Origin: a virus
IMG/VR virus record: IMGVR_UViG_3300025543_005580
Location: 47,990 to 111,989 of that record
Direction: 5' to 3' (one strand)
Length of the DNA stretch: 64,000 nt
The stretch's first letter is position 1. Each line of letters begins with the position of its first letter. Of this stretch, positions 1,051-49,640 are shown in pieces. Below the pieces are notes generated by a model. The model was not told the origin of the DNA. It ran no database searches and saw only the letters and a list, made by a program, of their open reading frames with translations. The translations under genes were made by a program, and so were the position numbers.

Positions 1051-3609
1051 TTAAGACAATTTTGTTATCATTAAGCAAGATGATCCTTGTTCTGGGGATT
1101 GGCTAAAATTCATTAGACCTCCTGTTAAGTTGTAAACTCTAGGATACCTGGTTGATATAGATCCAAAAGTATAAGTCATAGCTATTGTTAATCCTGTTAC
1201 TATTAAACCTGCAGTAGCATAGTTAGATACATTTTCAAAGGTTGCTAATTCAGCCCCACCATTTCCAGGAATTATTGATTGTTGATCGTTAAAATCAATC
1301 ATTACAGTTTCTGATGTTGTACCTACATTAAGTCCTCCTTGTATTGGTTGGTTGCAACTAAATATAACACTATATTCTATATAATAAGTACCTGCATTGA
1401 ATTGAATATTATTTGCATTTACTGTTATACCGGCAATACTACCAATAGGAGAACCACAACTCAAAATAGACATTGTATTATTAGCTATTCCATTTTCACT
1501 TAATGGGACTATAACTTTAGAACCACCATTTGGATCACCTAAACCAGGTGATCCTGTAGGTCCAGTACCTGAACCAGAACTACCTTGACCACCTTGAGAA
1601 CCTCTTCTACCATTAGGCCCATCTTCTCCATTAACTCCTGTAGGTCCTTGTGATCCTCTATATCCAGAATAACCTGTATTTGCTGCTGTTCCTTGGGGAC
1701 CTCTACCACCTGGTCCTCCTGTATATCCTCCTGGTCCTCCAAATCCAGTATAACCAACTCCACCAGTACCACCTTGTGGACCTCTATATCCTGTATTTGC
1801 TGTTGAACCAACTTGACCTTGTGGTCCTTGATAACCACTACTACCTCCTCTTGTAACACCGGCAAATCCAGTAAGACCTTGACCACCTTGATTTCCTCTA
1901 TGTCCTTGATAACCTGTATATGAAGTAGAACCTGTAGGTCCAGTATATCCTGCTAATCCACCACCTCCTTGTGGTCCTCTATATCCTTGAGAACCATTAA
2001 TACCATTAAGACCTTTTGGTCCATTATTACCTTGAGGACCTTGAGGTCCTGGGCCTGCTCCTTGAGGACCTCTAGGTCCAGTAGGTGGGGCATATGAACC
2101 ATATCCTTGTGGTCCTTGATTACCTTGACCACCAACAATACCATTATATCCTTGTGGTCCTTGATTACCTTGAGGTCCAGGACCTGATCCTTGAGGACCT
2201 CTTCCACCAGTAGCGGCTAGGAAGGCTGTATATCCTTGAAGACCGGGTTGGCCTTGAGGTCCAGTGGCTCCTTGATTACCTTGACCACCTTGAGGACCTT
2301 GAGGTCCTGTAGTACCACTTTGAGCACCTCGAGCTCCTGGGGCTGCTGTTCGACCAGTATATCCTTGAGAACCACGTCCACCTTGGCCGCCTTGAGTACC
2401 TCTACCACCTTGACCACCTTGAGGACCTTGAGGTCCTGTTGTTGAGCTTTGAGCACCTCGAGCTCCTGGGGCTGCTGTTAGACCAGTATATCCTTGGGAA
2501 CCACGTCCACCTTGGCCGCCTTGAGTACCTCTACCACCTTGACCACCTTGAGGACCTTGAGGTCCTGTAGTACCACTTTGAGCACCTCGAGCTCCTGGGG
2601 CTGCTGTTCGACCAGTATATCCTTGAGAACCACGTCCACCTTGGCCGCCTTGAGTACCTCTACCACCTTGACCACCTTGAGGACCTTGAGGTCCTGTTGT
2701 TGAGCTTTGAGCACCTCTACCACCTTGACCACCCTGAGGGCCTCTATACCCAGATATACCCCTAGGTCCTGTACCTCCTTGATTTCCTATATATCCTTGA
2801 ACACCTTGGTATCCTTGAGGGCCTGTAGGACCTGAACCACCTTGTGGACCTCTAGGTCCATTAAATCCAGTGTATCCTCCTAATCCAGTAGGACCTTGTC
2901 CCCCTTGATTACCTCTACCTCCAGTAGGTCCAGTATAACCTGTAGGACCATTTACTGTACTTTGGGTACCTTGAGAACCTTGAGGTCCTCCAAATCCTGT
3001 TATACCGTTATTACCTTGAGGACCTTGACCACCTTGATTACCACGTCCACCTTGACCACCTTGAGAACCTTGTCCACCTTGTACACCTCTTAAACCTGTA
3101 TTTCCTCCAGCTCCTCCTGAAGCACCCGGAGTACCTTGTTGTCCAACAGGTCCTTGTGAACCTCTACCTCCTTGTGGACCTCTATATCCTGTAAATCCTT
3201 GATTTCCTTGTGTACCTTGACTACCACGTCCTCCAGTAGGTCCAGTGTAACCACCTCTACCTCCAGGACCTGGGGTACCTTGATACCCAGGTACTCCTTG
3301 ATATCCTGTAACACCTTGATTACCTTGTGATCCTTGGTTTCCTTGAGCACCTTGACTTCCACCATTACCTGTACGGCCTGTATTTCCTGTATATCCTTGG
3401 GGTCCTTGAGGTCCTTGTGAACCCGCACTTCTTACAGTATCATATACTCTAGCTCCGGAAGTTGTGAAGGTTACAAAATCACCATCATTAGAATGAGTTT
3501 GCAGGTTTAGGACGACAGGGTTCATTGACCCTGTCATCACTACTGTCCTCATATCTATATCATTAGAACCTGTTGGAAAGATTCTATTGCCTGTTATTTC
3601 TAAACCCAT
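1051..3609 (-). CDS. Collagen-like fibre protein with C-terminal jelly-roll-like head
   Basis: This is an 852-residue protein. Residues 1-62 are an N-terminal domain shared with the neighbouring downstream gene (both open MGL-Q/E-IT). Residues ~63-690 are Gly-X-Y triplets (GPQ, GGQ, GGR, GYT). Residues ~695-852 form a globular domain with alternating hydrophobic strands (for example FNAGTYYIEYSVIF), resembling the C1q/TNF-like trimerising heads common at the end of bacterial and viral collagen-like proteins. The likely role is a virion fibre with a receptor-binding or trimerisation tip. The shaft contains a 43-residue tandem repeat (2303-2818). The gene starts 9 bases after the stop of the 4333-residue gene and is probably cotranscribed with it. 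The fold is inferred from pattern only. Confidence 0.87.
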   Translation of the reverse strand: MGLEITGNRIFPTGSNDIDMRTVVMTGSMNPVVLNLQTHSNDGDFVTFTTSGARVYDTVRSAGSQGPQGPQGYTGNTGRTGNGGSQGAQGNQGSQGNQGVTGYQGVPGYQGTPGPGGRGGYTGPTGGRGSQGTQGNQGFTGYRGPQGGRGSQGPVGQQGTPGASGGAGGNTGLRGVQGGQGSQGGQGGRGNQGGQGPQGNNGITGFGGPQGSQGTQSTVNGPTGYTGPTGGRGNQGGQGPTGLGGYTGFNGPRGPQGGSGPTGPQGYQGVQGYIGNQGGTGPRGISGYRGPQGGQGGRGAQSSTTGPQGPQGGQGGRGTQGGQGGRGSQGYTGRTAAPGARGAQSGTTGPQGPQGGQGGRGTQGGQGGRGSQGYTGLTAAPGARGAQSSTTGPQGPQGGQGGRGTQGGQGGRGSQGYTGRTAAPGARGAQSGTTGPQGPQGGQGNQGATGPQGQPGLQGYTAFLAATGGRGPQGSGPGPQGNQGPQGYNGIVGGQGNQGPQGYGSYAPPTGPRGPQGAGPGPQGPQGNNGPKGLNGINGSQGYRGPQGGGGLAGYTGPTGSTSYTGYQGHRGNQGGQGLTGFAGVTRGGSSGYQGPQGQVGSTANTGYRGPQGGTGGVGYTGFGGPGGYTGGPGGRGPQGTAANTGYSGYRGSQGPTGVNGEDGPNGRRGSQGGQGSSGSGTGPTGSPGLGDPNGGSKVIVPLSENGIANNTMSILSCGSPIGSIAGITVNANNIQFNAGTYYIEYSVIFSCNQPIQGGLNVGTTSETVMIDFNDQQSIIPGNGGAELATFENVSNYATAGLIVTGLTIAMTYTFGSISTRYPRVYNLTGGLMNFSQSPEQGSSCLMITKLS
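2303..2818 (-). repeat. 129-bp (43-residue) tandem repeats in collagen-like shaft
   Basis: Copies start at 2303, 2432, 2561 and 2690. Copies 1 and 3 share one variant (antisense tagtaccactttgagc) and copies 2 and 4 another (tgttgagctttgagc), giving an A-B-A-B arrangement. This points to duplication of a 258-bp pair. The last copy decays after its first ~30 bases. Confidence 0.85.
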
Positions 3610-3618
3610 ATTCGTTTA

Positions 3619-6600
3619 TTAAATATTAATGTAAGCATTAATAACATACGAGTCACCACTTCCGCTTTCGAGAGCTTTTGCAAATACTACATCTTGTAAG
3701 TTTTCGTTAATCATTTCTTCTCTCGTTATTGCTTTAGCATGTCCTACTTTATCTGAAGTAACAAGATAATCACCTTCTTTTACTATTCCAATTACAAGTA
3801 CTGGTTCAGCACCTTGAACAATTGGAATATTTTTATCAGGTACCATGACTCCCATTCTCATGTGATCTTTTTCGTTTGTACATGGAACTAAATCTCCATC
3901 TTTCCAAACCATTACAGTACCTAATTCGTGATTATTATTATCTTCTTTATTATTACCTGCTAAGTTCTGTTCAAATATACCACAAGTATTAAATGCGATT
4001 GCCCAAACATCTCTCCAACATAAATCTGGTCTACCAATATCCCAAACTCTATCTTGTATTGGGTTCATATTACCATCCCAATTGAAATCTGGGGCTGTAT
4101 AATTGGCAACTGTTAATCTATTTGGTCTACCTGCGTTGTAACTAACAATTTCACCGTTATTAGCTGTATTGCTCCAGTTAATAGCAATATCATTAGCATT
4201 AACAGTAATACCTGTACCTGAACCTATGTTTAATGTTCTATCAGTTGATAACGCACCTCCACCAGTTAAACCTGAACCTGCGATAATTGACACGTAAGTA
4301 CCGCTTGTACCCACATTACCTGATATACCACTAGTACCATCTATACCTGAAGTTCCTGATGTTCCTGAACCACCTGATACTCCACTAGCACCACCAACAC
4401 CTGAGGTACCGTTTGAACCTGTTGAACCTGATGTTCCTGATAATCTACTTAATCCGCTTGTTCCAGCTACACCACTTGTACCAATTGTACCTGAAGAACC
4501 GCTAGTTCCACTAGTAGCGCTTAATCCTGATAAACCAGCATTACCTGTTGTACCATTTGAACCTGTTGAACCACTAGTTCCAGATACTCTACTTAATCCA
4601 TTTGTACCATTATTACCTGTTGTACCATTTGAACCTGAACTACCTGATGTTCCAGATAATTTACTCAATCCATTTGTACCAGTATTACCTGAAGTACCAT
4701 TTGAACCTGTTGATCCACTTGTTCCTGATGCTCTACTTAATCCATTTGTACCAGTATTACCTGAAGTACCTGATGAACCACTAGTACCTGAAGTTCTACT
4801 AGCACCTGAGGCACCATTGACACCTGATGTACCGTTTGAACCTGAACTACCTGAAGTACCTGATAATCTAGATAATCCATTACCACCATTAACACCTGAA
4901 GTACCATTTGAACCACTTGATCCTGAAGTACCTGATACTCTAGATAATCCTGAAGTTCCAGCTACACCGCTTGTACCTATTGTACCTGAACTTCCTGAAG
5001 TTCCTGATGTAGCACTTAATGCTGATTGTCCTGCATTTCCAATAGTACCATTTGAACCTGATGAACCTGAAGTTCCTGAAGTTCCTGAAGTTCTACTAAT
5101 ACCTGAAGCACCATTAACACCTGAGGTACCATTTGAACCACTTGATCCTGAAGTACCTGATACTCTACTTAATCCTGAAGTACCATTAACACCTGAAGTA
5201 CCATTTGAACCTGTTGATCCACTTGCACCTGATGTTCTGCTTAATCCGGAAGTACCTGCAACTCCACTTGTACCAATTGTGCCTGATGAACCACTTGTTC
5301 CACTAGTAGCACTTAATCCTGATAAACCAGCATTACCTGTTGTACCATTTGAACCTGTAGAACCTGATGTTCCAGAAGTTTTACTAGCACCTGAAACACC
5401 ATTATTACCTGATGTACCTGATGAACCACTTGTTCCTGAAGTTCTAGATATTCCGGAGGCACCATTATTACCATTTGTACCTGTTGAACCTGAAGAACCA
5501 CTAGTTCCACTAGTTCTTGAAGCACCTGAAGCACCATTATTACCTGATGTACCTGAACTACCTGTTGAACCACTAGTTCCGGAAACATTACTTGTTCCGT
5601 TAGCACCTGCATTTCCTGAAGTACCATTTGAACCTGTAGAACCACTAGTTCCGGAAACATTACTTGTTCCGTTAGCACCTGCGTTTCCTGAAGTACCATT
5701 TGAACCTGTACTACCTGAAGTACCTGATACTCTAGATAATCCTGAAGTTCCAGCTACACCGCTTGTACCTATTGTACCTGAAGATCCTGAAGTACCACTT
5801 GTAGCGCTTAATCCTGATAAACCAGCATTACCTGTTGTACCATTTGAACCTGATGAACCTGAAGTACCACTTGAACCTGAAGTTCTACTAATACCTGAAG
5901 CACCGTTAACACCTGAGGTACCGTTTGAACCACTAGAACCACTTGTTCCAGAGAATCTACTTAATCCATTTGTACCATTATTACCTGTTGTACCATTTGA
6001 ACCTGAACTACCTGATGTTCCTGATAATCTACTTAATCCGTTTGTTCCAGCTACCCCACTTGTACCTATTGTACCTGAAGATCCTGATGTACCTGAAGTA
6101 GCACTTAAACCACTTTGTCCTGCGTTTCCAGTAGTACCTGTTGAACCTGATGAACCTGATGTTCCAGAAGTTCTACTAGCACCTGAAGCACCATTAGTAC
6201 CATTTGAACCACTTGATCCTGAAGTACCTGATATATTACTTGTTCCGTTATTTCCAGCTACACCACTTGTACCATTTGAACCAGTTGAACCTGAAGTACC
6301 GGATACATTACTTGTTCCATTAGCTCCTGCGTTTCCTGAGGTACCATTTGAACCTGTTGATCCAGAAGTTCCGGACAATGCACTTAATCCGTTTGTACCC
6401 GCAACTCCACTTGTACCTACTGTACCTGAAGATCCACTAGTTCCACTTGTAGCGCTTAATCCTGATTGTCCTGCATTACCTGTAGTACCGTTTGAACCGG
6501 TTGAACCTGAAGTACCTGATGTTTTACTTAATGCACTAGCTCCAGCATTTCCTGTTGTACCTGATGAACCTGATGAACCGCTTGTTCCTGATGTAGCACT

Positions 6601-9600
6601 TAATGCACTAGCACCTGCAACACCTGCGTTTCCTGATGTACCATTTGAACCTGTTGATCCGGAAGTACCTGAAGTCTTACTTAGTCCGGAAGTACCTGCT
6701 AATCCGCTTGTACCAATTGTACCTGATGAACCACTAGTTCCTGATGTAGCACTTAATCCTGATAAACCAGCATTACCTGTTGTACCATTTGAACCTGTAG
6801 AACCTGATGTTCCAGAAGTACCACTTGTAGCACTTAGAGCACTTGCTCCTGCATTTCCTGCAGTACCGTTTGAACCAGTTGAACCTGAAGTTCCCGATGT
6901 TCCTGAAGTAGCACTTAGTGCTGAAGCACCTGCGTTTCCAGCTGTACCATTTGAACCAGTACTACCTGATGTACCTGAAGTACCTGCTGTAGCACTTAAT
7001 CCTGAAGTACCTGCTACTCCTGAAGTACCTATTGTACCTGATGAACCTGAAGTTCCACTAGTAGCACTTAATCCTGATAAACCAGCATTACCTGTTGTAC
7101 CATTTGAACCTGTAGAACCTGATGTTCCAGAAGTACCACTTGTAGCACTTAGAGCACTTGCTCCTGCATTTCCTGCAGTACCGTTTGAACCAGTTGAACC
7201 TGAAGTTCCCGATGTTCCTGAAGTAGCACTTAGTGCTGAAGCACCTGCGTTTCCAGCTGTACCATTTGAACCAGTACTACCTGATGTACCTGAAGTACCT
7301 GCTGTAGCACTTAATCCTGAAGTACCTGCTACTCCTGAAGTACCTATTGTACCTGATGAACCTGAAGTTCCACTAGTAGCACTTAATCCTGATAAACCAG
7401 CATTACCTGAAGTACCATTTGAACCTGAAGAACCAGATGAACCAGATGAACCACTTGTTCCTGATGTAGCACTTAATGCGCTATCACCTGCGTTTCCAGC
7501 TGTACCATTTGAACCTGATGAACCGCTTGTTCCTGATGTATTACTTAATGCACTTGCACCTGCATCTCCGGCGGTACCTGATGAACCTGTACTACCTGAT
7601 GTTCCACTTGTTTCACTATTACCTGAAGTTCCAGCTACACCTGATGTACCTACTGTACCTGAAGAACCACTAGTACCTGATGTAGCACTTAAACCACTTT
7701 GTCCTGAGTTTCCTGATGTACCGTTTGAACCAGTTGAACCTGAACTACCAGATGTACCTGAAGTAGCACTTAAGGCTGAAGCTCCTGCGTTTCCAGCAGT
7801 ACCATTTGAACCTGAACTTCCTGAAGTACCTGAAGTAGCACTTAGTGCTGAAGCTCCTGCATCTCCTGAAGTACCACTTGAACCTGTTGAACCTGATGTT
7901 CCACTTGTTTCGCTATTTCCTGAAGTACCTGCAACTCCACTTGTACCTATTGTACCTGAGCTTCCTGAAGTACCTGAAGTTGAACTTAATGCACTTTGTC
8001 CTGCATTTCCAGCAGTACCATTTGAGCCACTTGAACCACTAGTTCCTGATGTAGCACTTAATGCGCTAGCACCTGCATTTCCTGCTGTACCTGATGAACC
8101 TGTAGAACCACTTGTTCCACTGGTGGCACTTAGAGCACTTACTCCTGCTTCACCTGCTGTACCTGATGAACCTGTACTACCTGATGAACCTGAAGTTCCT
8201 GAAGTTCCTGCAGATGCACTAGCACCTGAAGTACCTGCAACTCCACTTGTACCTACTGTACCTGAAGAACCACTAGTACCTGATGTAGCACTTAAACCAC
8301 TTTGTCCTGCGTTTCCTGATGTACCATTTGAACCTGTACTACCTGATGAACCTGAAGTACCTGCTGATCCTGATGTTGCACTAGCACCTGAAGCACCTAT
8401 ACTACCGTTTGAACCTGTACTACCTGATGTACCTGAAGTACCTGATGTATTACTAATACCTGATTCACCTGCGTTACCAGACGTTCCTGTTGAACCTGTA
8501 GAACCTGATGTTCCTGAAGTTGAACTATTTCCTGATGTACCAGCAACTCCACTTGTACCAATTGTACCTGAAGAACCTGAAGTACCACTTGTAGCACTTA
8601 GTGCACTTTGTCCTGCATTTCCAGCAGTACCGTTTGAACCTGAACTACCAGATGTACCTGATGTTGCACTTAAAGCACTTGCACCAGCATCTCCAGCTGT
8701 ACCTGAACTACCAGATGAACCACTTGTTCCTGAAGTAGCACTTAAAGCTGAAGCACCTGCTTCACCTGCTGTACCATTTGAACCAGTTGAACCTGATGTA
8801 CCTGAAGTACCTGCTGATCCTGATGTTGTACTATTACCGCTAGTACCAGCAACTCCACTAGTACCTACTGTACCTGAACTACCAGATGTACCTGATGTTG
8901 CGCTTAATCCTGATTGACCTGCATTACCTGAAGTACCATTTGAACCCGTTGATCCACTTGTTCCACTAGTTGCACTTAATGCACTAGCACCTGCATCTCC
9001 AGCAGTACCTGATGAACCTGACGAACCTGAAGTACCTGAAGTAGCACTTAAAGCTGAAGCACCTGCGTCTCCTGCTGTACCTGTTGATCCTGATGAACCT
9101 GAAGTTCCTGATGAACCTGAACTTGCACTATTTCCTGACGTACCTGCAACTCCTGAAGTACCAATTGTACCTGAAGATCCTGAAGTACCACTTGTAGCAC
9201 TTAGTGCACTTTGTCCTGCATTACCTGAAGTACCATTTGAGCCACTTGAACCGCTTGTTCCGGATGTAGCACTTAATGCGCTAGCACCTGCATTTCCTGC
9301 TGTACCACTAGAACCAGTTGAACCTGATGTACCCGAAGTACCTGAAGTTGAACTTAATGCACTAGCACCTGCTTCACCTGCTGTACCATTTGAACCAGTT
9401 GAACCTGAAGTACCTGAAGTACCTGAAGATCCTGATGAAGCACTGGCACCTGAAGTTCCAGCAACTCCACTAGTACCTACTGTACCTGAAGAACCGCTAG
9501 TTCCACTTGTAGCGCTTAATCCTGATTGACCAGCATTTCCATTTGTACCGTTTGATCCAGTACTACCTGATGATCCACTTGTACCACTAGTAGCACTTAA

Positions 9601-12600
9601 GGCTGAAGCTCCTGCTTCACCTGCTGTACCATTTGAACCTGAAGAACCACTTGTTCCACTAGTTGCACTTAGAGCACTTGCTCCTGCTTCACCTGAAGTA
9701 CCTGAGCTACCCGTTGAACCACTAGTTCCTGATGTTTCGCTATTTCCTGAAGTACCTGCAACTCCACTTGTACCTATTGTACCTGAAGAACCTGAAGTAC
9801 CTGAAGTAGCACTTAAACCACTTTGACCATCATTACCTGTAGTACCGTTTGAACCACTTGAACCTGATGTTCCTGAGGTTGCACTTAGGGCTGAAGCACC
9901 TGCATCTCCAGCAGTACCTGAACTACCTGTTGAACCTGAGGTTCCGCTAGTAGCACTTAAAGCACTAGCACCTGCTTCACCTGCTGTACCATTTGAACCA
10001 GTTGAACCTGAAGTACCTGAAGTTCCTGAAGAACCTGAACTTGCACTATCTCCACTTGTTCCAGCTACACCTGATGTACCTATAGTACCTGATGAACCAC
10101 TAGTTCCTGAAGTAGCACTTAATCCTGATTGTCCTGCATTACCTGAAGTACCATTTGAACCTGTACTACCTGAACTACCAGATGTACCTGAAGTTGCACT
10201 TAAGGCTGAAGCTCCGGCTTCACCTGCTGTACCACTTGAACCACTAGAACCACTTGTTCCAGATGTATTACTTAGAGCCGAAGCACCTGCATCTCCAGCA
10301 GTACCTGAACTACCTGTTGAACCTGAGGTTCCACTTGTTTCGCTATTTCCTGAAGTACCTGCAACTCCACTTGTACCAATTGTACCTGAAGAACCTGAAG
10401 TACCCGATGTTGCACTTAGTGCTGATTGACCAGCATTCCCCGCCGTACCATTTGAACCAGATGAACCACTAGTTCCTGAAGTAGCACTTAAAGCACTTGC
10501 TCCTGCATCTCCTGCAGTACCTGAACTACCTGTTGAACCGCTTGTTCCACTTGTTTCACTATTACCTGAAGTTCCAGCTACACCTGATGTACCGTTTGTA
10601 CCCGTACTACCTGATGAACCTGAAGTACCTGCTGATCCTGATGTTGCACTAGCACCTGAAGTGCCTGCTACTCCTGAAGTACCAATTGTACCTGAAGATC
10701 CTGAAGTTCCACTTGTAGCACTTAGAGCACTTTGTCCTGCGTTTCCTGCTGTACCATTTGAACCACTAGATCCAGATGTACCTGATGTAGCACTTAAAGC
10801 TGAAGCACCTGCGTCTCCTGCTGTACCACTAGAACCTGTTGAACCTGAAGTACCTGAAGTAGCACTTAAAGCTGAAGCACCTGCTTCACCTGCTGTACCA
10901 CTAGAACCAGTTGAACCTGAAGTTCCTGATGAACCTGAACTTGCACTATTTCCTGAAGTTCCAGCTACACCTGAGGTACCTACTGTACCTGAACTTCCTG
11001 AAGTTCCACTTGTAGCACTTAATGCGCTTTGTCCTGCGTTTCCTGCTGTACCATTTGAACCACTTGAACCACTTGAACCACTTGTTCCACTTGTAGCACT
11101 TTCAGCGGAAGCACCTGCTTCACCTGCTGTACCTGATGAACCACTTGAACCTGAAGTACCACTTGTAGCACTTAAAGCGCTTTCTCCAGCATCACCTGCT
11201 GTACCTGTTGAACCTGATGAACCTGAAGTTCCTGATGAACCTGAACTTGCACTATTTCCTGACGTACCTGCAACTCCTGAAGTACCAATTGTACCTGAAG
11301 AACCGCTAGTTCCACTTGTATCACTTAAGCCACTTTCACCTGCATTACCTGATGTACCTGTTGAACCACTAGAACCCGAAGTACCACTTGTTGCACTATC
11401 TCCTGACTCACCTGTTGTACCTGATGATCCTGTAGAACCACTTGTACCTGATTCTCCACTTGTAGCTGCAATTCCATTTTCTCCTGAAGTACCTGATGAA
11501 CCTGTTGTTCCACTAGTAGCACTAATTCCTGAAGTACCTGCAATTCCGTTTTCACCACTTGTACCTGATGAGCCTGTTGTACCTGAGGTGGCACTATCAC
11601 CACTTGTTCCAGCTACACCGCTTGTACCTATTGTACCTGATGAACCACTAGTTCCACTCGTAGCACTTAGTGCACTTTGACCAGCATTACCTGCTGTACC
11701 ATTTGAACCTGAAGAACCACTAGTTCCACTAGTAGCACTATCGGCTGAAGCACCTGCTTCACCTGCTGTACCACTTGAACCACTAGAACCACTTGTACCA
11801 CTTGTCTCACTTAAGGCAGAAGCACCAGCTTCACCTGCTGTACCTGAACTACCTGTTGAACCGCTTGTTCCACTTGAACCACTTGTTTCACTATTTCCTG
11901 ATGTACCTGCAACTCCTGAAGTACCTATTGTACCTGATGAACCTGAAGTACCTGAAGTAGCGCTTAAACCACTTTCTCCAGCATTACCATTCGTTCCTGT
12001 TGAACCTGAAGAACCACTAGTTCCACTTGTTTCACTATTTCCTGATTGACCAGCACTACCTGAAGAACCTGTAGAACCTGAAGTTCCTGATTCTCCACTA
12101 GTTGCAGCAACTCCATCAGCACCTGAAGTACCTGATGAACCTGTTGTTCCACTAGTAGCACTTATACCACTTGTTCCAGCAATTCCATCAGCACCTGCTG
12201 AACCTGAACTACCTGTTGTACCTGAGGTGGCACTATCTCCACTTGTTCCAGCTACACCACTTGTACCTATTGTACCTGAAGATCCTGATGTACCTGAAGT
12301 AGCACTATTTCCTGATTGACCTGCGTTTCCAGCAGTACCATTTGAACCCGTTGATCCACTTGTACCACTTGTGGCACTTAAAGCGGAAGCGCCTGCATCT
12401 CCTGCTGTACCTGATGAACCTGAACTTCCTGAGGTACCTGAAGTAGCACTTAAAGCTGAAGCACCTGCGTCTCCTGCTGTACCTGAACTACCTGATGAAC
12501 CTGAAGTTCCTGATGAACCTGATGAAGCACTAGCACCTGAAGTACCTGCAACTCCACTTGTACCTATTGTACCACTTGAACCAGCAGTACCTGAAGTAGC

Positions 12601-15600
12601 ACTTAAACCACTTTGTCCTGCGTTTCCAGCAGTTCCTGTTGAACCACTTGAACCTGAAGTACCACTTGTAGCACTATTTCCTGATTCTCCTACGGTACCG
12701 TTTGATCCTGTTGAACCACTTGTTCCTGATTCTCCACTTGTACCTGAAATTCCATCAGCTCCATTTGAACCTGATGAACCTGTTGTACCTGAAGTTGCAC
12801 TTGCGCCACTTGTACCTGAAATTCCATCAGCTCCATTTGAACCTGATGAACCTGTTGTACCTGAAGTTGCACTTGCGCCACTTGTACCATTAATTCCGCT
12901 AGTACCTATTGTACCTGATGAACCGCTTGTTCCGGATGTAGCACTTAAACCACTTTGTCCTGCGTTTCCAGCAGTTCCTGTTGAACCACTTGAACCGCTT
13001 GAACCGCTTGTTCCACTAGTAGCACTATCGGCTGAAGCACCTGCGTCTCCTGCTGTACCTGATGAACCTGATGAACCACTTGTTCCTGATGTTGCACTAT
13101 CTGCTGAAGCACCTGCTTCACCTACTGTACCACTTGAACCTGTTGAACCACTTGTTCCTGATGTTGCACTATCTCCACTTGTACCTGCGACTCCTGAAGT
13201 ACCTATTGTACCTGAGCTACCTGAAGTACCTGAAGTAGCACTTAAACCACTTTGTCCTGCGTTTCCAGCAGTTCCTGTTGAACCACTTGAACCTGAAGTA
13301 CCTGAAGTGGCACTATTTCCTGATTGACCTGCAATTCCATTATCTCCTGAAGTACCACTTGAACCAGTTGTACCTGAAGTACCTGATTCACCTGAAGTTC
13401 CTGCAACTCCATCAGCACCTGATGAACCTGAGCTACCTGTTGTTCCACTTGTAGCACTTTCACCACTTGTTCCAGCAATTCCATCAGCTCCGTTTGAACC
13501 TGATGAACCTGTTGTTCCACTAGTAGTACTTTCACCTGAAGTACCTGCTACACCTGAGGTACCTATTGTACCTGATGAACCACTAGTTCCTGAAGTTGCA
13601 CTTTGAGCAGATTGACCTGCGTTACCTGATGTACCAGTTGAACCACTAGTACCACTAGTTCCACTTGAAGCACTATCTCCTGAATTACCAGCAGTACCTG
13701 AACTACCTGTTGTACCTGAAGTACCTGATTCACCGCTAGTTGCTGCTATTCCATTTTCACCTGAAGTACCTGAAGAACCTGTTGTTCCTGAAGTACTTGA
13801 TTCGCCACTTGTGCCTGCAACTCCATCAGCACCTGCTGAACCTGAACTACCTGTTGTACCTGAGGTGGCACTATCTCCACTTGTACCAGCAACTCCTGAA
13901 GTACCTATTGTACCTGAAGAACCTGATGAACCGCTTGTAGCAGAAGCACCTGATTGACCTGCATTTCCTGAAGTACCTGAAGAACCATCTTCACCACTTG
14001 TACCTGAAGTACCTGTAGCACCTGATTGCCCAGCGGCACCTGTTGTACCTGAAGATCCGTCAATACCACTTGTACCTGATGTACCATCAACTCCTGAAGT
14101 ACCAACTGTACCTGAAGCACCTGATGTTCCACTTGTTGCTGAAACACCTGACTGACCTGCATTTCCTGAAGTACCTGTAGAACCGGTTGAACCTGAAGTT
14201 CCTGAGGTAGAACTTAAACCGCTTTCTCCAGCAATTCCATTATCCCCTGATGTACCTGAGCTACCTGTTGTACCTGATGTACCACTAAATCCACTAATTC
14301 CATCATTACCTGCTTCACCTGTTGTACCACTAGAACCAGTTGAACCTGAAGTACCTGATTCACCTGATGTACCTGATGTACCTGAATCTCCTGAAGTACC
14401 TGAAACTCCTGAAGTACCTATTGTACCACTTTCTCCAGACGTACCTGAAGTAGCTGTTAACCCTGATTGACCTGCATTTCCTGAAGTACCTGAAGAACCA
14501 TCTTCACCACTTGTACCTGAAGTACCTGTAGCACCTGATTGTCCAGCGGCACCTGTTGAACCTGATGAACCATCTATACCACTAGTACCTGAGGTACCAT
14601 CAACTCCACTTGTACCTATTGTACCTGAGTCTCCTGAAGTACCTGAAGTGGCACTATTTCCTGATTGACCTGCATTTCCTGAAGTACCTGAAGAACCATC
14701 TTCACCACTTGTACCTGAAGTTCCATCGGCTCCTGATTGTCCAGCAGCACCTGTTGTACCTGAAGATCCGTCAATACCACTTGTACCTGATGTACCTGCA
14801 ACTCCTGAAGTACCTATTGTACCTGAGTCTCCTGACGTACCTGAAGTACCTGCAACTCCGCTTTGTCCATCGGCACCATTTGTTCCTGATGTACCTGATT
14901 GTCCTGTTGTACCTGAAGAACCAGCTTGTCCTGATGTACCTGATGTAGCTGCTACATATCCTAGTGTTCCTGTAATAGGATCGTATGTTACTACATTTAC
15001 TATATCTTGTACAGGTAAAGTATCTACATTAAAACTACCTGTTACTTCTAAACTACCTGAAATTATTGCTGAACCAGTATATGGGAAAGCTCCTATACCT
15101 GATGTACCTGAGGTAGCAGCAATTTGACCTGTAGTAGTAATTACATATGAGTAATGTGAAGTACCTTCAGTATAGAAAGTTGTATTTAGATTTTGGTTTT
15201 CGTTGTTTTTAACCCAAATCTCAACCATCATACGATATGATGGATCAATAGTACTTCCTACTAATGTAATATCAGTTTCAAGTAATACTGGGGTTGTATT
15301 ATTGTTATTCCATCCTATTAGTGTGGGTTGAGAATTACCTAGGGTTTGTAATACGTTACCTGAACCGTCTGTAATTTTTAATGTAATAAATAATTCTACA
15401 TCATCGTTTATAGCTGGTTTAGTAGCCCATAATTTAAATTGTTGAACACCACCTGGGATTACATTAAATCCAAATGGAGTTGAAATATATGTTTGTAACT
15501 TAGTATCTGTGTTTTGAATAGCAGATACAGTAACTGATTGTTCGGCAGATACTGTTACATCTTTAGATAATTGTTTATAGGGTGATACTTCAACTACTGA

Positions 15601-16620
15601 TTCATTAAAGTAGTAAATAGCACCTGTTGTAAGACCATCTCTACCGGATGTACCTGATTCACCTGATGTACCTGATGTACCTGATGTACCTGATGTACCT
15701 GAAGTACCTGAAGTACCATTAGCACCTGAAGTACCTGCTGTAGCTGCTGCTCCACCAGTAATATCTACTAATACTCCGTTTGATCCCGAAGTTGTTACTA
15801 CAACACCAGATCCGGTAAAATTAATATCAGCATTATTTTTAGACACTAACGAACCGGTATAATATATATCAGTTTGTGTTAAATCATCTAGGAAATTTTG
15901 AACTTCAATTTGATAAGCAGCAAATTCTTGACCTGTATTTAAATCTGTAAATCCTGGGAAATTAGATTTAAACATTGGTGCTAAACTTTCGTTTTCTGAA
16001 AGAGCAACAACTGCTATATTTTGATTTGCCCCTGGGAATAAGGTATCTCCTGATTCTGTTTCTGTGCCTTTTTCATCCCACGTTATATAAATTGAACCTT
16101 CAGAACCATTTATTGCTCTATAATATACTTCTTCTATTGAATATTTATGAAATCTACCATTAATTGATTGATCAGAAAGATTAGCGGCTTGTCCTAAAAT
16201 AGCATACTCTGGGGATAATGCCGAGTTATAATCTGAATCTTCACTACCTGTAATATCATTAAAATCAATTAATCCTTGAGGATCAGTAATAGAAGCCGAT
16301 GGTATATAATAATCTCCAACGGCTGGTGATATACGAGCTAATCCTTGAGTTTCATTAGTTGCTGGAAGAGAAGCTACTGTAATAGTATTTAATACTGTAT
16401 CTACAGCTGTAATTGTTACGCCAGAAGGGAATGCTGAAGATTCTACTAGCATTTGGCCTACACGGACAAAGTCTATATTTAGATATCCAGCAACGTCTGT
16501 TACATTTGTTAGGGTTGTTGATGCTGTTGTTGCATCAAATGTTACCCTAATATATGAATTACTTCCATTACCTATTGGTGAAGCGTTTGATAGCTTCCCA
16601 TAAAAAAGTTGTCTTGCCAT
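3619..16620 (-). CDS. Giant 4333-residue collagen-like (GTS-repeat) fibre protein
   Basis: Residues 1-~290 are an N-terminal domain. After a short GTS stretch, residues ~324-560 form a second beta-rich domain. Residues ~561-4100 are nearly uninterrupted Gly-X-Y triplets dominated by GTS, GSS, GTA, GNA and GAS, with almost no proline. Glycine is periodically replaced by alanine in SATSGTSG. Residues ~4101-4333 form a tip. The tip starts with SGLTGGGALSTDRTLNI, a motif common in phage tail fibres, and continues with a segment (DIGRPDLCWRDVWAIAFNT then GTVMVW) resembling peptidase G2/chaperone-type fibre ends. The family role is probably a long trimeric adhesion fibre. The frame has no stop over 13 kb, so it is under selection. 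The start is ATG, with an ATATTTATA motif 38 bases upstream, just after a terminator. Confidence 0.9.
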   Translation of the reverse strand: MARQLFYGKLSNASPIGNGSNSYIRVTFDATTASTTLTNVTDVAGYLNIDFVRVGQMLVESSAFPSGVTITAVDTVLNTITVASLPATNETQGLARISPAVGDYYIPSASITDPQGLIDFNDITGSEDSDYNSALSPEYAILGQAANLSDQSINGRFHKYSIEEVYYRAINGSEGSIYITWDEKGTETESGDTLFPGANQNIAVVALSENESLAPMFKSNFPGFTDLNTGQEFAAYQIEVQNFLDDLTQTDIYYTGSLVSKNNADINFTGSGVVVTTSGSNGVLVDITGGAAATAGTSGANGTSGTSGTSGTSGTSGTSGESGTSGRDGLTTGAIYYFNESVVEVSPYKQLSKDVTVSAEQSVTVSAIQNTDTKLQTYISTPFGFNVIPGGVQQFKLWATKPAINDDVELFITLKITDGSGNVLQTLGNSQPTLIGWNNNNTTPVLLETDITLVGSTIDPSYRMMVEIWVKNNENQNLNTTFYTEGTSHYSYVITTTGQIAATSGTSGIGAFPYTGSAIISGSLEVTGSFNVDTLPVQDIVNVVTYDPITGTLGYVAATSGTSGQAGSSGTTGQSGTSGTNGADGQSGVAGTSGTSGDSGTIGTSGVAGTSGTSGIDGSSGTTGAAGQSGADGTSGTSGEDGSSGTSGNAGQSGNSATSGTSGDSGTIGTSGVDGTSGTSGIDGSSGSTGAAGQSGATGTSGTSGEDGSSGTSGNAGQSGLTATSGTSGESGTIGTSGVSGTSGDSGTSGTSGESGTSGSTGSSGTTGEAGNDGISGFSGTSGTTGSSGTSGDNGIAGESGLSSTSGTSGSTGSTGTSGNAGQSGVSATSGTSGASGTVGTSGVDGTSGTSGIDGSSGTTGAAGQSGATGTSGTSGEDGSSGTSGNAGQSGASATSGSSGSSGTIGTSGVAGTSGDSATSGTTGSSGSAGADGVAGTSGESSTSGTTGSSGTSGENGIAATSGESGTSGTTGSSGTAGNSGDSASSGTSGTSGSTGTSGNAGQSAQSATSGTSGSSGTIGTSGVAGTSGESTTSGTTGSSGSNGADGIAGTSGESATSGTTGSSGSSGADGVAGTSGESGTSGTTGSSGTSGDNGIAGQSGNSATSGTSGSSGSTGTAGNAGQSGLSATSGTSGSSGTIGTSGVAGTSGDSATSGTSGSTGSSGTVGEAGASADSATSGTSGSSGSSGTAGDAGASADSATSGTSGSSGSSGSTGTAGNAGQSGLSATSGTSGSSGTIGTSGINGTSGASATSGTTGSSGSNGADGISGTSGASATSGTTGSSGSNGADGISGTSGESGTSGSTGSNGTVGESGNSATSGTSGSSGSTGTAGNAGQSGLSATSGTAGSSGTIGTSGVAGTSGASASSGSSGTSGSSGSSGTAGDAGASALSATSGTSGSSGSSGTAGDAGASALSATSGTSGSTGSNGTAGNAGQSGNSATSGTSGSSGTIGTSGVAGTSGDSATSGTTGSSGSAGADGIAGTSGISATSGTTGSSGTSGADGVAATSGESGTSGSTGSSGSAGQSGNSETSGTSGSSGSTGTNGNAGESGLSATSGTSGSSGTIGTSGVAGTSGNSETSGSSGTSGSTGSSGTAGEAGASALSETSGTSGSSGSSGTAGEAGASADSATSGTSGSSGSNGTAGNAGQSALSATSGTSGSSGTIGTSGVAGTSGDSATSGTTGSSGTSGENGIAGTSGISATSGTTGSSGTSGENGIAATSGESGTSGSTGSSGTTGESGDSATSGTSGSSGSTGTSGNAGESGLSDTSGTSGSSGTIGTSGVAGTSGNSASSGSSGTSGSSGSTGTAGDAGESALSATSGTSGSSGSSGTAGEAGASAESATSGTSGSSGSSGSNGTAGNAGQSALSATSGTSGSSGTVGTSGVAGTSGNSASSGSSGTSGSTGSSGTAGEAGASALSATSGTSGSTGSSGTAGDAGASALSATSGTSGSSGSNGTAGNAGQSALSATSGTSGSSGTIGTSGVAGTSGASATSGSAGTSGSSGSTGTNGTSGVAGTSGNSETSGTSGSTGSSGTAGDAGASALSATSGTSGSSGSNGTAGNAGQSALSATSGTSGSSGTIGTSGVAGTSGNSETSGTSGSTGSSGTAGDAGASALSNTSGTSGSSGSSGTAGEAGASALSATSGTSGSSGSTGSNGTSGNAGQSGLSATSGTSGSSGTIGTSGVAGTSGDSASSGSSGTSGTSGSTGSNGTAGEAGASALSATSGTSGSTGSSGTAGDAGASALSATSGTSGSSGSNGTTGNDGQSGLSATSGTSGSSGTIGTSGVAGTSGNSETSGTSGSTGSSGTSGEAGASALSATSGTSGSSGSNGTAGEAGASALSATSGTSGSSGSTGSNGTNGNAGQSGLSATSGTSGSSGTVGTSGVAGTSGASASSGSSGTSGTSGSTGSNGTAGEAGASALSSTSGTSGTSGSTGSSGTAGNAGASALSATSGTSGSSGSNGTSGNAGQSALSATSGTSGSSGTIGTSGVAGTSGNSASSGSSGTSGSSGSTGTAGDAGASALSATSGTSGSSGSSGTAGDAGASALSATSGTSGSTGSNGTSGNAGQSGLSATSGTSGSSGTVGTSGVAGTSGNSTTSGSAGTSGTSGSTGSNGTAGEAGASALSATSGTSGSSGSSGTAGDAGASALSATSGTSGSSGSNGTAGNAGQSALSATSGTSGSSGTIGTSGVAGTSGNSSTSGTSGSTGSTGTSGNAGESGISNTSGTSGTSGSTGSNGSIGASGASATSGSAGTSGSSGSTGSNGTSGNAGQSGLSATSGTSGSSGTVGTSGVAGTSGASASAGTSGTSGSSGSTGSSGTAGEAGVSALSATSGTSGSTGSSGTAGNAGASALSATSGTSGSSGSNGTAGNAGQSALSSTSGTSGSSGTIGTSGVAGTSGNSETSGTSGSTGSSGTSGDAGASALSATSGTSGSSGSNGTAGNAGASALSATSGTSGSSGSTGSNGTSGNSGQSGLSATSGTSGSSGTVGTSGVAGTSGNSETSGTSGSTGSSGTAGDAGASALSNTSGTSGSSGSNGTAGNAGDSALSATSGTSGSSGSSGSSGSNGTSGNAGLSGLSATSGTSGSSGTIGTSGVAGTSGLSATAGTSGTSGSTGSNGTAGNAGASALSATSGTSGTSGSTGSNGTAGNAGASALSATSGTSGTSGSTGSNGTTGNAGLSGLSATSGTSGSSGTIGTSGVAGTSGLSATAGTSGTSGSTGSNGTAGNAGASALSATSGTSGTSGSTGSNGTAGNAGASALSATSGTSGTSGSTGSNGTTGNAGLSGLSATSGTSGSSGTIGTSGLAGTSGLSKTSGTSGSTGSNGTSGNAGVAGASALSATSGTSGSSGSSGTTGNAGASALSKTSGTSGSTGSNGTTGNAGQSGLSATSGTSGSSGTVGTSGVAGTNGLSALSGTSGSTGSNGTSGNAGANGTSNVSGTSGSTGSNGTSGVAGNNGTSNISGTSGSSGSNGTNGASGASRTSGTSGSSGSTGTTGNAGQSGLSATSGTSGSSGTIGTSGVAGTNGLSRLSGTSGSSGSNGTTGNNGTNGLSRFSGTSGSSGSNGTSGVNGASGISRTSGSSGTSGSSGSNGTTGNAGLSGLSATSGTSGSSGTIGTSGVAGTSGLSRVSGTSGSTGSNGTSGNAGANGTSNVSGTSGSTGSNGTSGNAGANGTSNVSGTSGSTGSSGTSGNNGASGASRTSGTSGSSGSTGTNGNNGASGISRTSGTSGSSGTSGNNGVSGASKTSGTSGSTGSNGTTGNAGLSGLSATSGTSGSSGTIGTSGVAGTSGLSRTSGASGSTGSNGTSGVNGTSGLSRVSGTSGSSGSNGTSGVNGASGISRTSGTSGTSGSSGSNGTIGNAGQSALSATSGTSGSSGTIGTSGVAGTSGLSRVSGTSGSSGSNGTSGVNGGNGLSRLSGTSGSSGSNGTSGVNGASGASRTSGTSGSSGTSGNTGTNGLSRASGTSGSTGSNGTSGNTGTNGLSKLSGTSGSSGSNGTTGNNGTNGLSRVSGTSGSTGSNGTTGNAGLSGLSATSGTSGSSGTIGTSGVAGTSGLSRLSGTSGSTGSNGTSGVGGASGVSGGSGTSGTSGIDGTSGISGNVGTSGTYVSIIAGSGLTGGGALSTDRTLNIGSGTGITVNANDIAINWSNTANNGEIVSYNAGRPNRLTVANYTAPDFNWDGNMNPIQDRVWDIGRPDLCWRDVWAIAFNTCGIFEQNLAGNNKEDNNNHELGTVMVWKDGDLVPCTNEKDHMRMGVMVPDKNIPIVQGAEPVLVIGIVKEGDYLVTSDKVGHAKAITREEMINENLQDVVFAKALESGSGDSYVINAYINI
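4320..14940 (-). repeat. Gly-Thr-Ser collagen-like repeat region (coding)
   Basis: About 10.6 kb of 9-base-periodic coding DNA specifies Gly-X-Y triplets. On the plus strand it reads as endless variations of acctgaagt, acctgatgt and accacttgt. There is a higher-order unit: blocks containing SSGTIGTSGVAGTSG recur dozens of times, alternating with NAGQSGLSATSGTSG-type blocks. The repeats are imperfect except for one exact duplication (6761-7390). Confidence 0.95.
6761..7390 (-). repeat. Perfect 315-bp tandem duplication inside the giant fibre gene
   Basis: Bases 6761-7075 and 7076-7390 read identically when compared by eye and encode the same 105 residues. Other higher-order repeats in the gene differ by many synonymous changes, so this duplication is recent. 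Confidence 0.85.
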
Positions 16621-16720: not shown

Positions 16721-18748
16721 TTAGAAATGCATTGTATATAATAATGAACCAAATAAATCTAAACCACCGGATAAAGTATAAACATTATGATTAGCAGATG
16801 TGCTAAAAGTAATACCACCAGCATTTATTTGAGATGAATTAGAACCACCAACATTAAAGAATTGACATTGGGCAACATTTCTAGTATCTAAACTATTATT
16901 TTTACCAGCACCATTTTCTAAAGCATTAGAAGGTAAAGTAACTGTAATAGTACCTGTATCCGATGAATTAATAAATACTTGGAGAGATAATAATTGGCAA
17001 TTTCCTGCACTTGGTGCTTCAATAGTTAATGCTGTTTCACTTACTGCTGTTACATCAAAAGCTGGTATATAAACACCTGCTGTTCCACTTGTATCTCCTG
17101 AATCTGCTACAGTACAAGTAAATGTATTAGTACCTGTTGAAGTAATAGAAACATAAACATAATCTACATTAAAGTTTCTTAATACAACATAATCTCCAGT
17201 TGTTAAACCATGTGATGTTGAAGTTACCGTTAATGTAGTACTTGAACGAGACCAACTTAATCCACTAATAGTATTACCAGCAGACATTAATTGTGCTTTA
17301 TCTGAACCACTAGTTACTTCATATCTAACTACATTAGTATATGGAGTACCACCTCCACCGGCAGCACTAGTACCTGAAGTACCGGCAGCACCACTTGTTC
17401 CAGATGAACCTGGGTTACCTTGAGCACCTGTTTCTCCACTTGTTCCTGATGAACCTGAATCTCCTGAAGTACCTGATGTACCTATTGCTCCATTAGCTCC
17501 ACTTGTACCTGATGTACCTATTGCTCCATTAGCACCTGAAGTACCTGATGTACCTGGGGCACCTGTATCTCCACTTGTTCCTGAAGTACCTGGAGCACCT
17601 GCGGCTCCATTATCACCTGAAGTACCTGATGTACCTGGATTACCTTGAGCACCTACTTCTCCTGAAGTACCTGATGTACCTACAGCACCTGCAGCTCCAC
17701 TTGTTCCTGAAGAACCAGGAGCACCTGCTGCACCTGCGTCTCCTGAAGTACCTGAAGTACCTGGAGCACCTGTGGCTCCATTATCACCTGAAGTACCTGA
17801 AGTACCTGGATTACCTTGAGCACCTACTTCTCCTGAAGTACCTGATGTACCTGGAGCACCTGCGGCTCCATTATCACCTGAAGTACCTGATGTACCTGGA
17901 GCACCTGCGGCTCCATTATCACCTGAAGTACCTGAAGTACCTGGAGCACCTGCGTCTCCTGATGTACCTGAAGTACCTGGAGCACCTGGAGCACCTGCGT
18001 CTCCTGAAGTACCTGATGTACCTGGGTTACCTGCAGCTCCTGTGTCTCCTGAGGTACCTGAAGTACCTGGAGCACCTGCGTCTCCTGATGTACCTGAAGA
18101 GCCAGCATTACCTGAAATTCCTGATGTACCGGATGTACCTATGGCTCCATCTTCTCCTGAAGTACCTGATGTACCTGGAGCACCTGCGACTCCATTATTA
18201 CCTGAAGTACCTGAAGTACCTGGGGCACCTGTATTTCCTGAGGTACCTGAAGTACCTGGGGCACCTGTATTTCCTGAGGTACCTGATGTACCTGGAGCAC
18301 CTGCGACTCCATTATTACCTGAAGTACCTGAAGTACCTACTGCACCTGCAGCTCCATCAGCACCCGAAGTACCTGAAGTACCTACTGCACCGGCAGCTCC
18401 ACTTGTTCCTGAGGTACCTGTAGCTCCTGATTCACCAGACGTACCTGATGAACTTGCACCACCTGATATTGTTATACTAGCTACACCTGCTGCTATATCA
18501 ACACTATCAACTGCTGTACCAGCAAAGTTAAGTGTTGATGCTGTACCTACTGCTGAACCAGTATATTGTATTGGAATTAAACCACTACCACCTCCTCCGG
18601 AACCGGAGACTGCGGGATATACATTACCCTGATAGTCTTTAATATATAAACGACCTAGGTCAGTTGGTTCAGAAAAAAGTGCTACAGATCCAGATGCTGG
18701 ATTTGTTATACTTCCTGATGGGGTTGATTGTTGATTTATTTGAGCCAC
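16721..18748 (-). CDS. Collagen-like fibre protein with GTSG shaft (675 aa)
   Basis: The start is GTG at 18748; an in-frame TAA two codons upstream leaves no other start. Residues 1-~100 are an N-terminal domain (opening MAQINQQSTPSGSITN) typical of small fibre attachment regions. Residues ~101-460 are Gly-X-Y triplets built from blocks such as GAPGTSGTSGDNGAA, so this shaft contains some proline, unlike the giant neighbour. Residues ~465-675 are a beta-rich C-terminal domain. The likely role is a virion fibre or decoration protein. The ATATTTATA motif lies 18 bases upstream and a strong terminator follows, so it appears to be its own transcription unit. The receptor or target is unknown. Confidence 0.87.
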   Translation of the reverse strand: MAQINQQSTPSGSITNPASGSVALFSEPTDLGRLYIKDYQGNVYPAVSGSGGGGSGLIPIQYTGSAVGTASTLNFAGTAVDSVDIAAGVASITISGGASSSGTSGESGATGTSGTSGAAGAVGTSGTSGADGAAGAVGTSGTSGNNGVAGAPGTSGTSGNTGAPGTSGTSGNTGAPGTSGTSGNNGVAGAPGTSGTSGEDGAIGTSGTSGISGNAGSSGTSGDAGAPGTSGTSGDTGAAGNPGTSGTSGDAGAPGAPGTSGTSGDAGAPGTSGTSGDNGAAGAPGTSGTSGDNGAAGAPGTSGTSGEVGAQGNPGTSGTSGDNGATGAPGTSGTSGDAGAAGAPGSSGTSGAAGAVGTSGTSGEVGAQGNPGTSGTSGDNGAAGAPGTSGTSGDTGAPGTSGTSGANGAIGTSGTSGANGAIGTSGTSGDSGSSGTSGETGAQGNPGSSGTSGAAGTSGTSAAGGGGTPYTNVVRYEVTSGSDKAQLMSAGNTISGLSWSRSSTTLTVTSTSHGLTTGDYVVLRNFNVDYVYVSITSTGTNTFTCTVADSGDTSGTAGVYIPAFDVTAVSETALTIEAPSAGNCQLLSLQVFINSSDTGTITVTLPSNALENGAGKNNSLDTRNVAQCQFFNVGGSNSSQINAGGITFSTSANHNVYTLSGGLDLFGSLLYTMHF

Positions 18749-49067: not shown

Positions 49068-49640
49068 TTATTTTTTAAGTGATTGTAAAAATTTAATTGT
49101 TTCTTCTTTACTTTCTAGCATTTTTATTTTATTAGAACCAACCCAGCTTTCTATATCACCAGCTTCTGTTATAAAATCTTCGTTAGATTGATTTAGCATT
49201 TCGTCAAACCAAACCTCAAATTCTTTTGTTAAATTATCAACGTTATCGTTTATAAATACGTTATTATATTCTTCCCATAAACCCTTTAATTTTAAATCAG
49301 CTTCAAAGCTAACTTGACATGTTAAACATCTTTTAAATTGTAAATAAAAACGTTTATCTGCTTGCTTTTTCATTAAATTATTACATGAAGGACAAAATAA
49401 AGGCATATGTATTTCCTTTTTAGCATTATCCAGTTTAGTGATGTTTTGTTTAATACCGTTTTTAATAGTCCAAGTACGACCATCAGATTCCCAAACATCA
49501 CCTTCTTCATGAAATTCTTCTACTTTAGTATAACCAACACCTTGTACATTACGAGCCCCATGCTTGCCTGTCATTAGGTTACGAAGACGTTGTACGTCTT
49601 TTTCTTTAAATTCTTTCTTTAAAACTGATTCTTTACTCAT
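49068..49640 (-). CDS. Zinc-ribbon phage protein of unknown function (190 aa)
   Basis: The start chosen is ATG 49640 (MSKESVLKKEFKEKDVQRLR), overlapping the polyprotein stop by 4 bases (ATGA); the longer frame is inside that gene. A GDVWESDGRTWTIKNGIKQN segment (about 47-66) is of a type common in T4-like phages, and CPSC (about 82-85) with CLTC (about 107-110) forms a zinc ribbon. The C-terminal part is acidic and helical. The role may be nucleic-acid binding or transcription-related, unproven. It belongs to the same operon as the polyprotein. Confidence 0.78.
   Translation of the reverse strand: MSKESVLKKEFKEKDVQRLRNLMTGKHGARNVQGVGYTKVEEFHEEGDVWESDGRTWTIKNGIKQNITKLDNAKKEIHMPLFCPSCNNLMKKQADKRFYLQFKRCLTCQVSFEADLKLKGLWEEYNNVFINDNVDNLTKEFEVWFDEMLNQSNEDFITEAGDIESWVGSNKIKMLESKEETIKFLQSLKK

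Follow-up and report, generated by a model that had tools for sequence, protein, structure and literature searches.

The subject of this study is a giant collagen-like fibre gene of a T4-like phage, which lies in a 64,000-nucleotide stretch of DNA (the window) spanning bases 47,990-111,989 of the 111,989-base viral record IMGVR_UViG_3300025543_005580. The gene occupies the minus strand and is one open frame encoding 4333 residues; its coordinates and length had been given exactly in an earlier reading of the letters alone (here called the sequence-only reading). That reading had also noticed a Gly-X-Y (GXY) run of about 3540 residues, which we measured at 3549, and had described a very long, proline-poor, collagen-like fibre protein. 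The description holds: this run, the shaft, contains no proline (the whole protein has 28), the Collagen family PF01391 scores above its curated cut-off of 27.2 bits at many stretches of the frame (best, 38.9 bits), and the gp23 capsid, gp20 portal and terminase genes recognized in the window by Pfam are those of a T4-like phage. The fibre genes sit between the head genes and the tail sheath, an order that points to the tail. The anatomy and the suggested glycosylation of the sequence-only reading have lasted; the minus strand, the 24-residue period of the breaks in the shaft, the pair of serines at each break and the enzyme genes beyond the window had escaped it.

The shaft comprises 1183 triplets and keeps a single register, with no slip throughout. 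Glycine fills 1007 of the 1183 Gly slots, leaving 176 breaks. These had been seen as recurring Gly-to-Ala substitutions, which is correct for 133 of the 176, but the other 43 carry Arg (16), Glu (8), Asn (7), Ser (5), Lys (4), Thr (2) or Asp (1). The commonest triplets are GTS (272), GSS (137) and ATS (78); X is chiefly Thr, Ser, Leu, Asn or Ala, and Y chiefly Ser, Ala, Thr or Asn. There are 95 acidic residues versus 20 lysines and arginines, and only 3 aromatics or histidines; lysine occupies 4 Gly slots and is not listed at X or Y. Glycine is encoded by GGT (677), GGA (314), GGC (11) and GGG (5), and serine by six codons; from this mixture of synonymous codons we infer that the pattern is maintained in the protein and does not stem from one recent DNA expansion. 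Plus-strand frames opposite the shaft, at 4817-8917 (1366 aa), 10661-11680 (339 aa) and 12371-13327 (318 aa), are most likely shadows of the repeat codons and not genes.

The breaks are phased. Their autocorrelation is 0.62 at a lag of 8 triplets, versus -0.15 to 0.01 at lags 2, 4, 6 and 7 and 0.21 at lag 9, and their spectral peak has a power of 42.2, whereas 30 shuffles never exceeded 7.9. When clusters of breaks are merged, 82 of 134 gaps measure 8 triplets (24 residues). Classical collagen symmetries have 7 and 10 triplets per superhelical turn; as 8 falls between the two, the breaks might align on one face.

The same period recurs in related fibres of the Ser/Thr type, a class read in 22 viral contigs. 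We read such fibres in 19 contigs with genes resembling that for the O-heptosyltransferase TibC, drawn from 23 contigs picked by hand, mostly for a Ser/Thr fibre already seen (20 with a TibC match, 3 without); the set is therefore no measure of frequency. Ser/Thr frames complete at both ends run from 913 to 4969 residues, and the fibres of 4969, 4661 and 3190 residues have different N-terminal domains. In nearly all of these frames none of the nine reported lags is stronger than lag 8, the exceptions being the weakly broken frames L234_18476 and L238_11118; in L234_3497 and L235 the spectral peak falls at 4.00 and 9.64 triplets, with lag 8 still the strongest lag. The Pro/Gln collagen neighbours, L222_6433 included, have no lag-8 period. 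Thirteen proteins picked for their regular stretches align gap-free over 144 columns, and one relative has 40 exact modules in succession. The consensus of 1343 exact modules (61 of them from L240, a duplicate of L239) is GTS GSS G(S/T)(N/S) G(T/S)S G(N/V)A G(T/A)S (G/A)LS (A/R/N)TS. Glycine stands in 97-100% of the modules' first six slots, and serine in 99% of modules at position 21 and 97% at position 24, with other Y positions at 4% to 81%; the way modules were chosen conditions the Gly columns of this profile and not the serine columns. The two serines flank each break, and Leu or Ala often stands directly before it. Within the pair, TCN and AGY codons number 408 and 921 at one serine and 827 and 482 at the other, and no single-base route between these codon types stays serine.

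Across the relatives, 1206 of 2345 gaps between breaks equal 8 triplets, and 24 register shifts occur in 60,570 residues of 27 fibres, none of them in the 4333-residue protein. Pro/Gln frames (three of L222, one of L231) were left out of both the module profile and the register count, and L240 also out of the latter. At the other end of these proteins, 8 of the 10 related C-termini that were scanned (chosen after the ends were seen) carry an S74 chaperone, and the two S74-bearing ends given to PHROGs both match long-tail-fibre distal subunits.

Searching with the N-terminal domain of the giant protein yielded nine loci. The homologue in G002 is 92% identical in this domain and runs to at least 4262 residues, its contig ending inside the C-terminal domain; much of the second region (residues 332-560) is missing from it. 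That in G003 is complete at 4499 residues (65% in the N-terminal domain, 76% in the C-terminal domain), and L009 (G001) matches G002 and is open at the contig end after 2262 residues. L017 encodes an 849-residue protein whose GXY shaft is short (124 triplets by a looser rule), and L011, L012, L013, L015 and L016 a 377-residue protein with no shaft. A constant N-terminal domain is found, then, with shafts from nothing to 3927 residues, a range also spanned, from none to long, by the five relatives aligned over it; among the giant homologues the ends are conserved and the arrangement of modules differs. The N-terminal domain, probably the virion anchor, has no Pfam match and a best PHROGs match at only E 0.16, and residues 332-560 gave no convincing family match in Pfam or PHROGs. 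The C-terminal domain, probably the distal tip, has weak tail-protein profile matches limited to its first ~40 residues, a motif that also matches the tail collar fibre gp4 in the PDB (9d93, E 8.9e-5); its AlphaFold2 model from four sequences is of low confidence (pLDDT 36.7). As a single query this domain retrieved no viral contig, and as an alignment three, all already known. A phages collection searched with both end domains and the N-terminus of a related fibre returned no matches.

Partly beyond the window, the fibre genes are followed by a block of enzyme genes. The order is the 837-aa and 1011-aa collagen-like genes, a GT2-methyltransferase fusion, DUF6445, a 2-oxoglutarate (2OG)-Fe(II) oxygenase, two GT1-type glycosyltransferases and a TibC-type O-heptosyltransferase, and then the tail sheath and tape measure. 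The TibC-like protein belongs by score to TIGR04414 and gives at most 20 bits with lipopolysaccharide (LPS) heptosyltransferase models; it aligns nearly end to end with TibC (4rap, E 5.5e-67) and retains D110, K230 and the four iron-finger cysteines, whose roles in TibC have been described (PMC4358343). In the TibA peptides that were studied, TibC adds heptose to serine and not to threonine (PMC4358343). G003 has the full set of six cassette genes, at 61-87% identity. Both GT1-type genes were detected in every one of the 18 TibC clusters that have 6 kb or more upstream, among which the oxygenase (4), DUF6445 (3) and the GT2 fusion (4) are not general. Glycosylation on Ser or Thr had been raised as a possibility by the sequence-only reading, and the presence of a TibC/Aah-type enzyme and further glycosyltransferases in the same gene block lends that suggestion substance. 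The oxygenase, with H-x-D and a later H visible, lies beside the DUF6445 protein (L020:912-1505, L020:1509-2159); the latter, to judge by a similar H-x-D ... H pattern, is possibly a second oxygenase, and the oxygenase substrate is perhaps the proline of the Pro-containing collagen neighbours. The 1011-aa collagen-like gene (L020:3454-6489) carries a PA14 domain, often carbohydrate-binding.

Enzyme and fibre tend to occur together. We fetched the best 80 of 316 loci matched in a TibC-seeded scan; of the 21 with at least 9.5 kb upstream, 20 contain a Ser/Thr GXY frame that reaches 100 triplets or more. In three of these (L047, L074 and L086) the frame came into view only when more upstream sequence was read, and in L100 it lies past the TibC gene on the opposite strand. 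In a joint set of loci, seeded with TibC or with the sheath and each extending 7 kb or more upstream of the sheath, a long Ser/Thr frame lay within the locus in 15 of 24 clusters with TibC versus none of 9 without (Fisher p 0.0014, relatedness not removed). This comparison is weakened by the clusters with TibC being mostly TibC-seeded and by the controls being more distant, and two of the controls had shorter frames, of 58 and 82 triplets. TibC-like proteins at 38-39% identity (G030 and G031) had no such fibre frame in the 20 kb read of each. The 849-residue version of the protein (G004) is accompanied by a TIGR04414 match of 235.3 bits, and the 377-residue version (G005) by none, though its contig ends soon after. 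The cultured Microcystis phage Mel-JY01 combines TIGR04414 (320.6 bits) with a Ser/Thr GXY frame that lacks period-24 breaks; the domain is held there by a gene labelled "methyltransferase FkbM", a few kilobases from the frame (L150:4750-8430, PP395634.1). The 735-kb phage LR756501 (TIGR04414, 307.1 bits) has several Ser/Thr GXY frames of up to 437 triplets, again without period-24 breaks (L245:16339-24786, LR756501.1), and these unbroken frames are possibly the ancestral form of the shaft.

The features of the locus are collected in Table 1. Upstream of the giant gene, the 675-aa collagen-like gene has 134 triplets (looser rule), with 18 prolines at Y and 12 breaks. The closest capsid match in the phages collection, and the closest named one, is Flavobacterium phage immuto (Immutovirus; 54.6% identity), which has a similar head gene order and differs in that neither PF01391 nor TIGR04414 was found in its complete genome. 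A scan of genome contigs with the TibC-like protein gave one locus. Contig L244 (JABDKL010000107.1), in a Winogradskyella metagenome-assembled genome, carries a sheath gene, a TibC-like gene and a GXY fibre end, and is probably a phage contig and a hint of the host. Because the capsid is nearest to that of immuto and the same tail block occurs in the Winogradskyella contig, the host is likely to belong to the Flavobacteriia. Elsewhere in the window, a 783-aa protein (49637-51988, minus strand) has a cytidylyltransferase-like N-terminus and a deoxyribonucleotidase-like C-terminus, which are two adjoining genes in immuto; a gene at 52363-53160 (minus) encodes a Zeta-toxin-type kinase domain (PF06414, 64.3 bits); and a very large gene at 58783-63999 (minus), running past the window edge, encodes no fewer than 1666 aa, or 1738 when the open end is counted, and has no PHROGs match.

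Table 1. Features of the giant fibre gene, its neighbours and the linked enzyme (window positions unless a contig is named)
Feature	Position	Strand	Remarks
Giant collagen-like fibre protein, whole gene	3619..16620	-	One open frame, 4333 aa
N-terminal domain, residues 1-283	15772..16620	-	65-92% conserved, five aligned relatives
Short GXY stretch, about residues 294-331	15628..15741	-	
Second, mostly non-collagen region, residues 332-560	14941..15627	-	
Shaft, residues 561-4109, 1183 GXY triplets	4294..14940	-	176 Gly breaks, no Pro
C-terminal domain, residues 4110-4333	3622..4293	-	75-77% identity, three relatives
Upstream 675-aa collagen-like gene, GTS/GAP type, Pro at Y	16721..18748	-	Pfam Collagen, 177 bits
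Downstream 852-aa collagen-like gene, Pro/Gln type	1051..3609	-	Pfam Collagen, 114.5 bits
Next downstream 837-aa collagen-like gene, Pro/Gln type	3..1037	-	Cut by window edge; whole gene L020:6513-9026
gp23-type major capsid protein	23602..25260	-	PF07068, 258 bits
TibC-type O-heptosyltransferase (TIGR04414)	G000:36807-38006		Outside window; 336.4 bits, cut-off 200

Taken with the gene order, these data make it very probable that the protein forms a fibre of the virion, in the tail or elsewhere. Related fibres end in an S74 chaperone and match long-tail-fibre distal subunits, which makes a trimeric tail fibre the obvious interpretation, and polyproline-II-type triplets are suggested by glycine at every third residue in nearly inviolate phase; that the shaft is a triple helix has, in our view, slightly better than an even chance. 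On the architecture we propose, the N-terminal domain would anchor a homotrimeric adhesin to the virion, the C-terminal domain would form its distal tip, and the collagen-type triplets would form the shaft between them, in which each Gly-substituted triplet between two serines may be a phased, slightly widened node every ~24 residues. With proline lost, and about every eighth glycine with it, compensation would be needed. Serine and threonine may stand in for proline, and the TibC-type enzyme and its partner glycosyltransferases may put sugar on serines, the node pair being the prime candidates; such sugars would hydrate, stiffen and shield the shaft, and gain or loss of modules would tune its length and give the phage a long reach. 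Glycosylation of collagens has parallels, that of Riftia being glycosylated. For the collagen-like BclA of Bacillus, glycosylation is believed to improve hydration (PMC8968730). We lean towards serine glycosylation of the 4333-residue protein, as the gene neighbourhood suggests, and give the whole picture, in which a trimeric tail-fibre shaft consists of collagen-like triplets interrupted in phase and bears O-linked sugar on serine, an even chance. Its most specific form, a collagen-derived, proline-free shaft of 24-residue modules whose invariant serines are O-heptosylated by the phage's own TibC-type enzyme, is offered tentatively and may well fail in one part or another. For a triple helix, and only for one, the shaft length would be 3549 x 0.286 nm = 1015 nm.

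Several observations weigh against this architecture. Glycine does not occupy every third position of the shaft, which speaks against an uninterrupted classical collagen, and the proline or hydroxyproline that stabilizes collagen is missing. Without proline, and with glycine lost at about every eighth triplet, a bare triple helix should be very unstable. The S74 domain (Peptidase_S74, PF13884) is absent from the C-terminus of the 4333-residue protein itself. At the exceptional locus L104 (G029), a 56-kb contig with a TibC-like gene offers only 20 triplets over its full length. Pfam recognized no phage-encoded enzyme of ADP-heptose synthesis in the 10 window proteins submitted to it, a set that falls short of the whole genome, and the target of the TibC-like enzyme may be something other than the fibre.

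The alternative that survives best, possible though rather unlikely, is that the shaft is a solenoid in which each 24-residue coil makes one turn, either as a beta-solenoid or as a polyproline-II sheet like those of the snow-flea antifreeze protein or of the S16 adhesin, and that the TibC-like enzyme acts on it as it does on the solenoids of autotransporters. A solenoid explains the module length directly, and the 24-residue period is dominant in nearly all Ser/Thr fibres even where extra breaks lie at 2, 4 or 6 triplets; the unbroken succession of exact modules in one relative is also in its favour. It also fits the known substrates of TibC, which are autotransporter repeats (PMC4358343). An AlphaFold2 monomer of six modules shows, with low confidence (pLDDT 47.5), strands that recur with a 24-residue spacing, and a Foldseek search of the PDB with it gave four matches, none at E <= 0.001, the best being polyproline-II bundle antifreeze proteins at a non-significant E of 0.83 and above; we take neither the model nor the search as evidence of the fold. 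Against a solenoid, the modulo-3 register is held with few shifts despite variable break spacing, and glycine is nearly constant in the first six slots; the module has no obvious hydrophobic core, and relatives beside TibC-like genes have unbroken GXY repeats without the 24-residue period. The register argument is not decisive, because slippage in 9-base units could hold the register by mutation alone. At the usual rise of about 0.48 nm per coil, 148 coils would measure about 71 nm, an ordinary tail-fibre size.

It is also conceivable, if unlikely, that the targets of the glycosyltransferases are sugars of the host surface, altered for example to keep out other phages, and that the fibre is unglycosylated. 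Modification of host sugars is how such enzymes, encoded in the host-recognition region of pelagimyophages, have been interpreted (PMC7029224). Against this, TIGR04414 is a family of protein O-heptosyltransferases, preferred here over the LPS heptosyltransferase models by 336 bits to at most 20, and the block adjoins Ser-rich fibres, a long one being present at all but one of the TibC loci that extend far enough upstream. A disordered, glycosylated tether akin to mucin would suit a composition of mostly Ser, Thr, Gly and Ala, the nearby glycosyltransferases and the uncertainty of order prediction noted above, but we consider it improbable, since a strict Gly phase, phased breaks and a serine pair invariant across divergent proteins are unexpected for a disordered linker. 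Finally, the worry of the sequence-only reading that the length is an assembly expansion, repeats being prone to misassembly, is rejected and its probability regarded as negligible because the long homologues in G002 and G003 occur in separate contigs; related fibres reach 4969 residues, and the gene is one open frame.

If the proposed architecture is correct, this phage would stabilize its fibre with an O-glycosylation system of its own, and a triple-helical shaft would reach about one micrometre. The fibre offers a natural test of how a Gly-X-Y protein that has no proline and misses glycine in about every eighth triplet can be stable, and of a second open question, whether phages glycosylate their own fibres. 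With a sequence rule (period 24, serine pair) and a linked enzyme in hand, both questions become testable with short recombinant segments.

Our literature search, made mostly by title and abstract opening in a library lacking most subscription journals, found no GTS-type phage fibres, period-24 breaks or phage TibC. The closest known systems each share part of the arrangement. EPclA and EPclB of Escherichia coli O157 prophages (Collagen PF01391) are phage fibres with a GXY shaft between terminal domains, and for EPclA a triple-helical trimer has been demonstrated, its 111 collagen residues measuring about 30 nm (PMC3368898); the present shaft differs in its 3549 residues, its lack of proline, its serine-paired breaks of 24-residue period and the TibC-like enzyme in its gene block. 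TibC and Aah, which act with TibA and AIDA-I, share with our system the catalytic and iron-finger residues and a Ser-rich, repetitive, adhesin-like partner, whereas here the gene is a phage gene and the putative substrate consists of GXY repeats instead of autotransporter repeats. Mimivirus L230, a lysyl hydroxylase/glucosyltransferase, is a case of a virus glycosylating its own collagen-like protein (PMC4691112), and a 2OG oxygenase and glycosyltransferases likewise lie near our fibre; the enzymes are different, however, and the target there is hydroxylysine, while this shaft has almost no lysine. The C1q stem (with a discontinuity and a non-twisting triple helix), the snow-flea antifreeze protein and the phage S16 adhesin are polyproline-II assemblies with a non-classical twist, one of them with rings of hydrophobic side chains, and the available part of their description mentions no periodic 24-residue module (PMC11869133). 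Precedents thus exist for each element, that is, for phage collagen-like fibres, for TibC enzymes and for viral collagen glycosylation. What is new, as far as the literature searched shows, is the size of the fibre, the interrupted module of period 24 with its serine pair, and the linkage of the genes.
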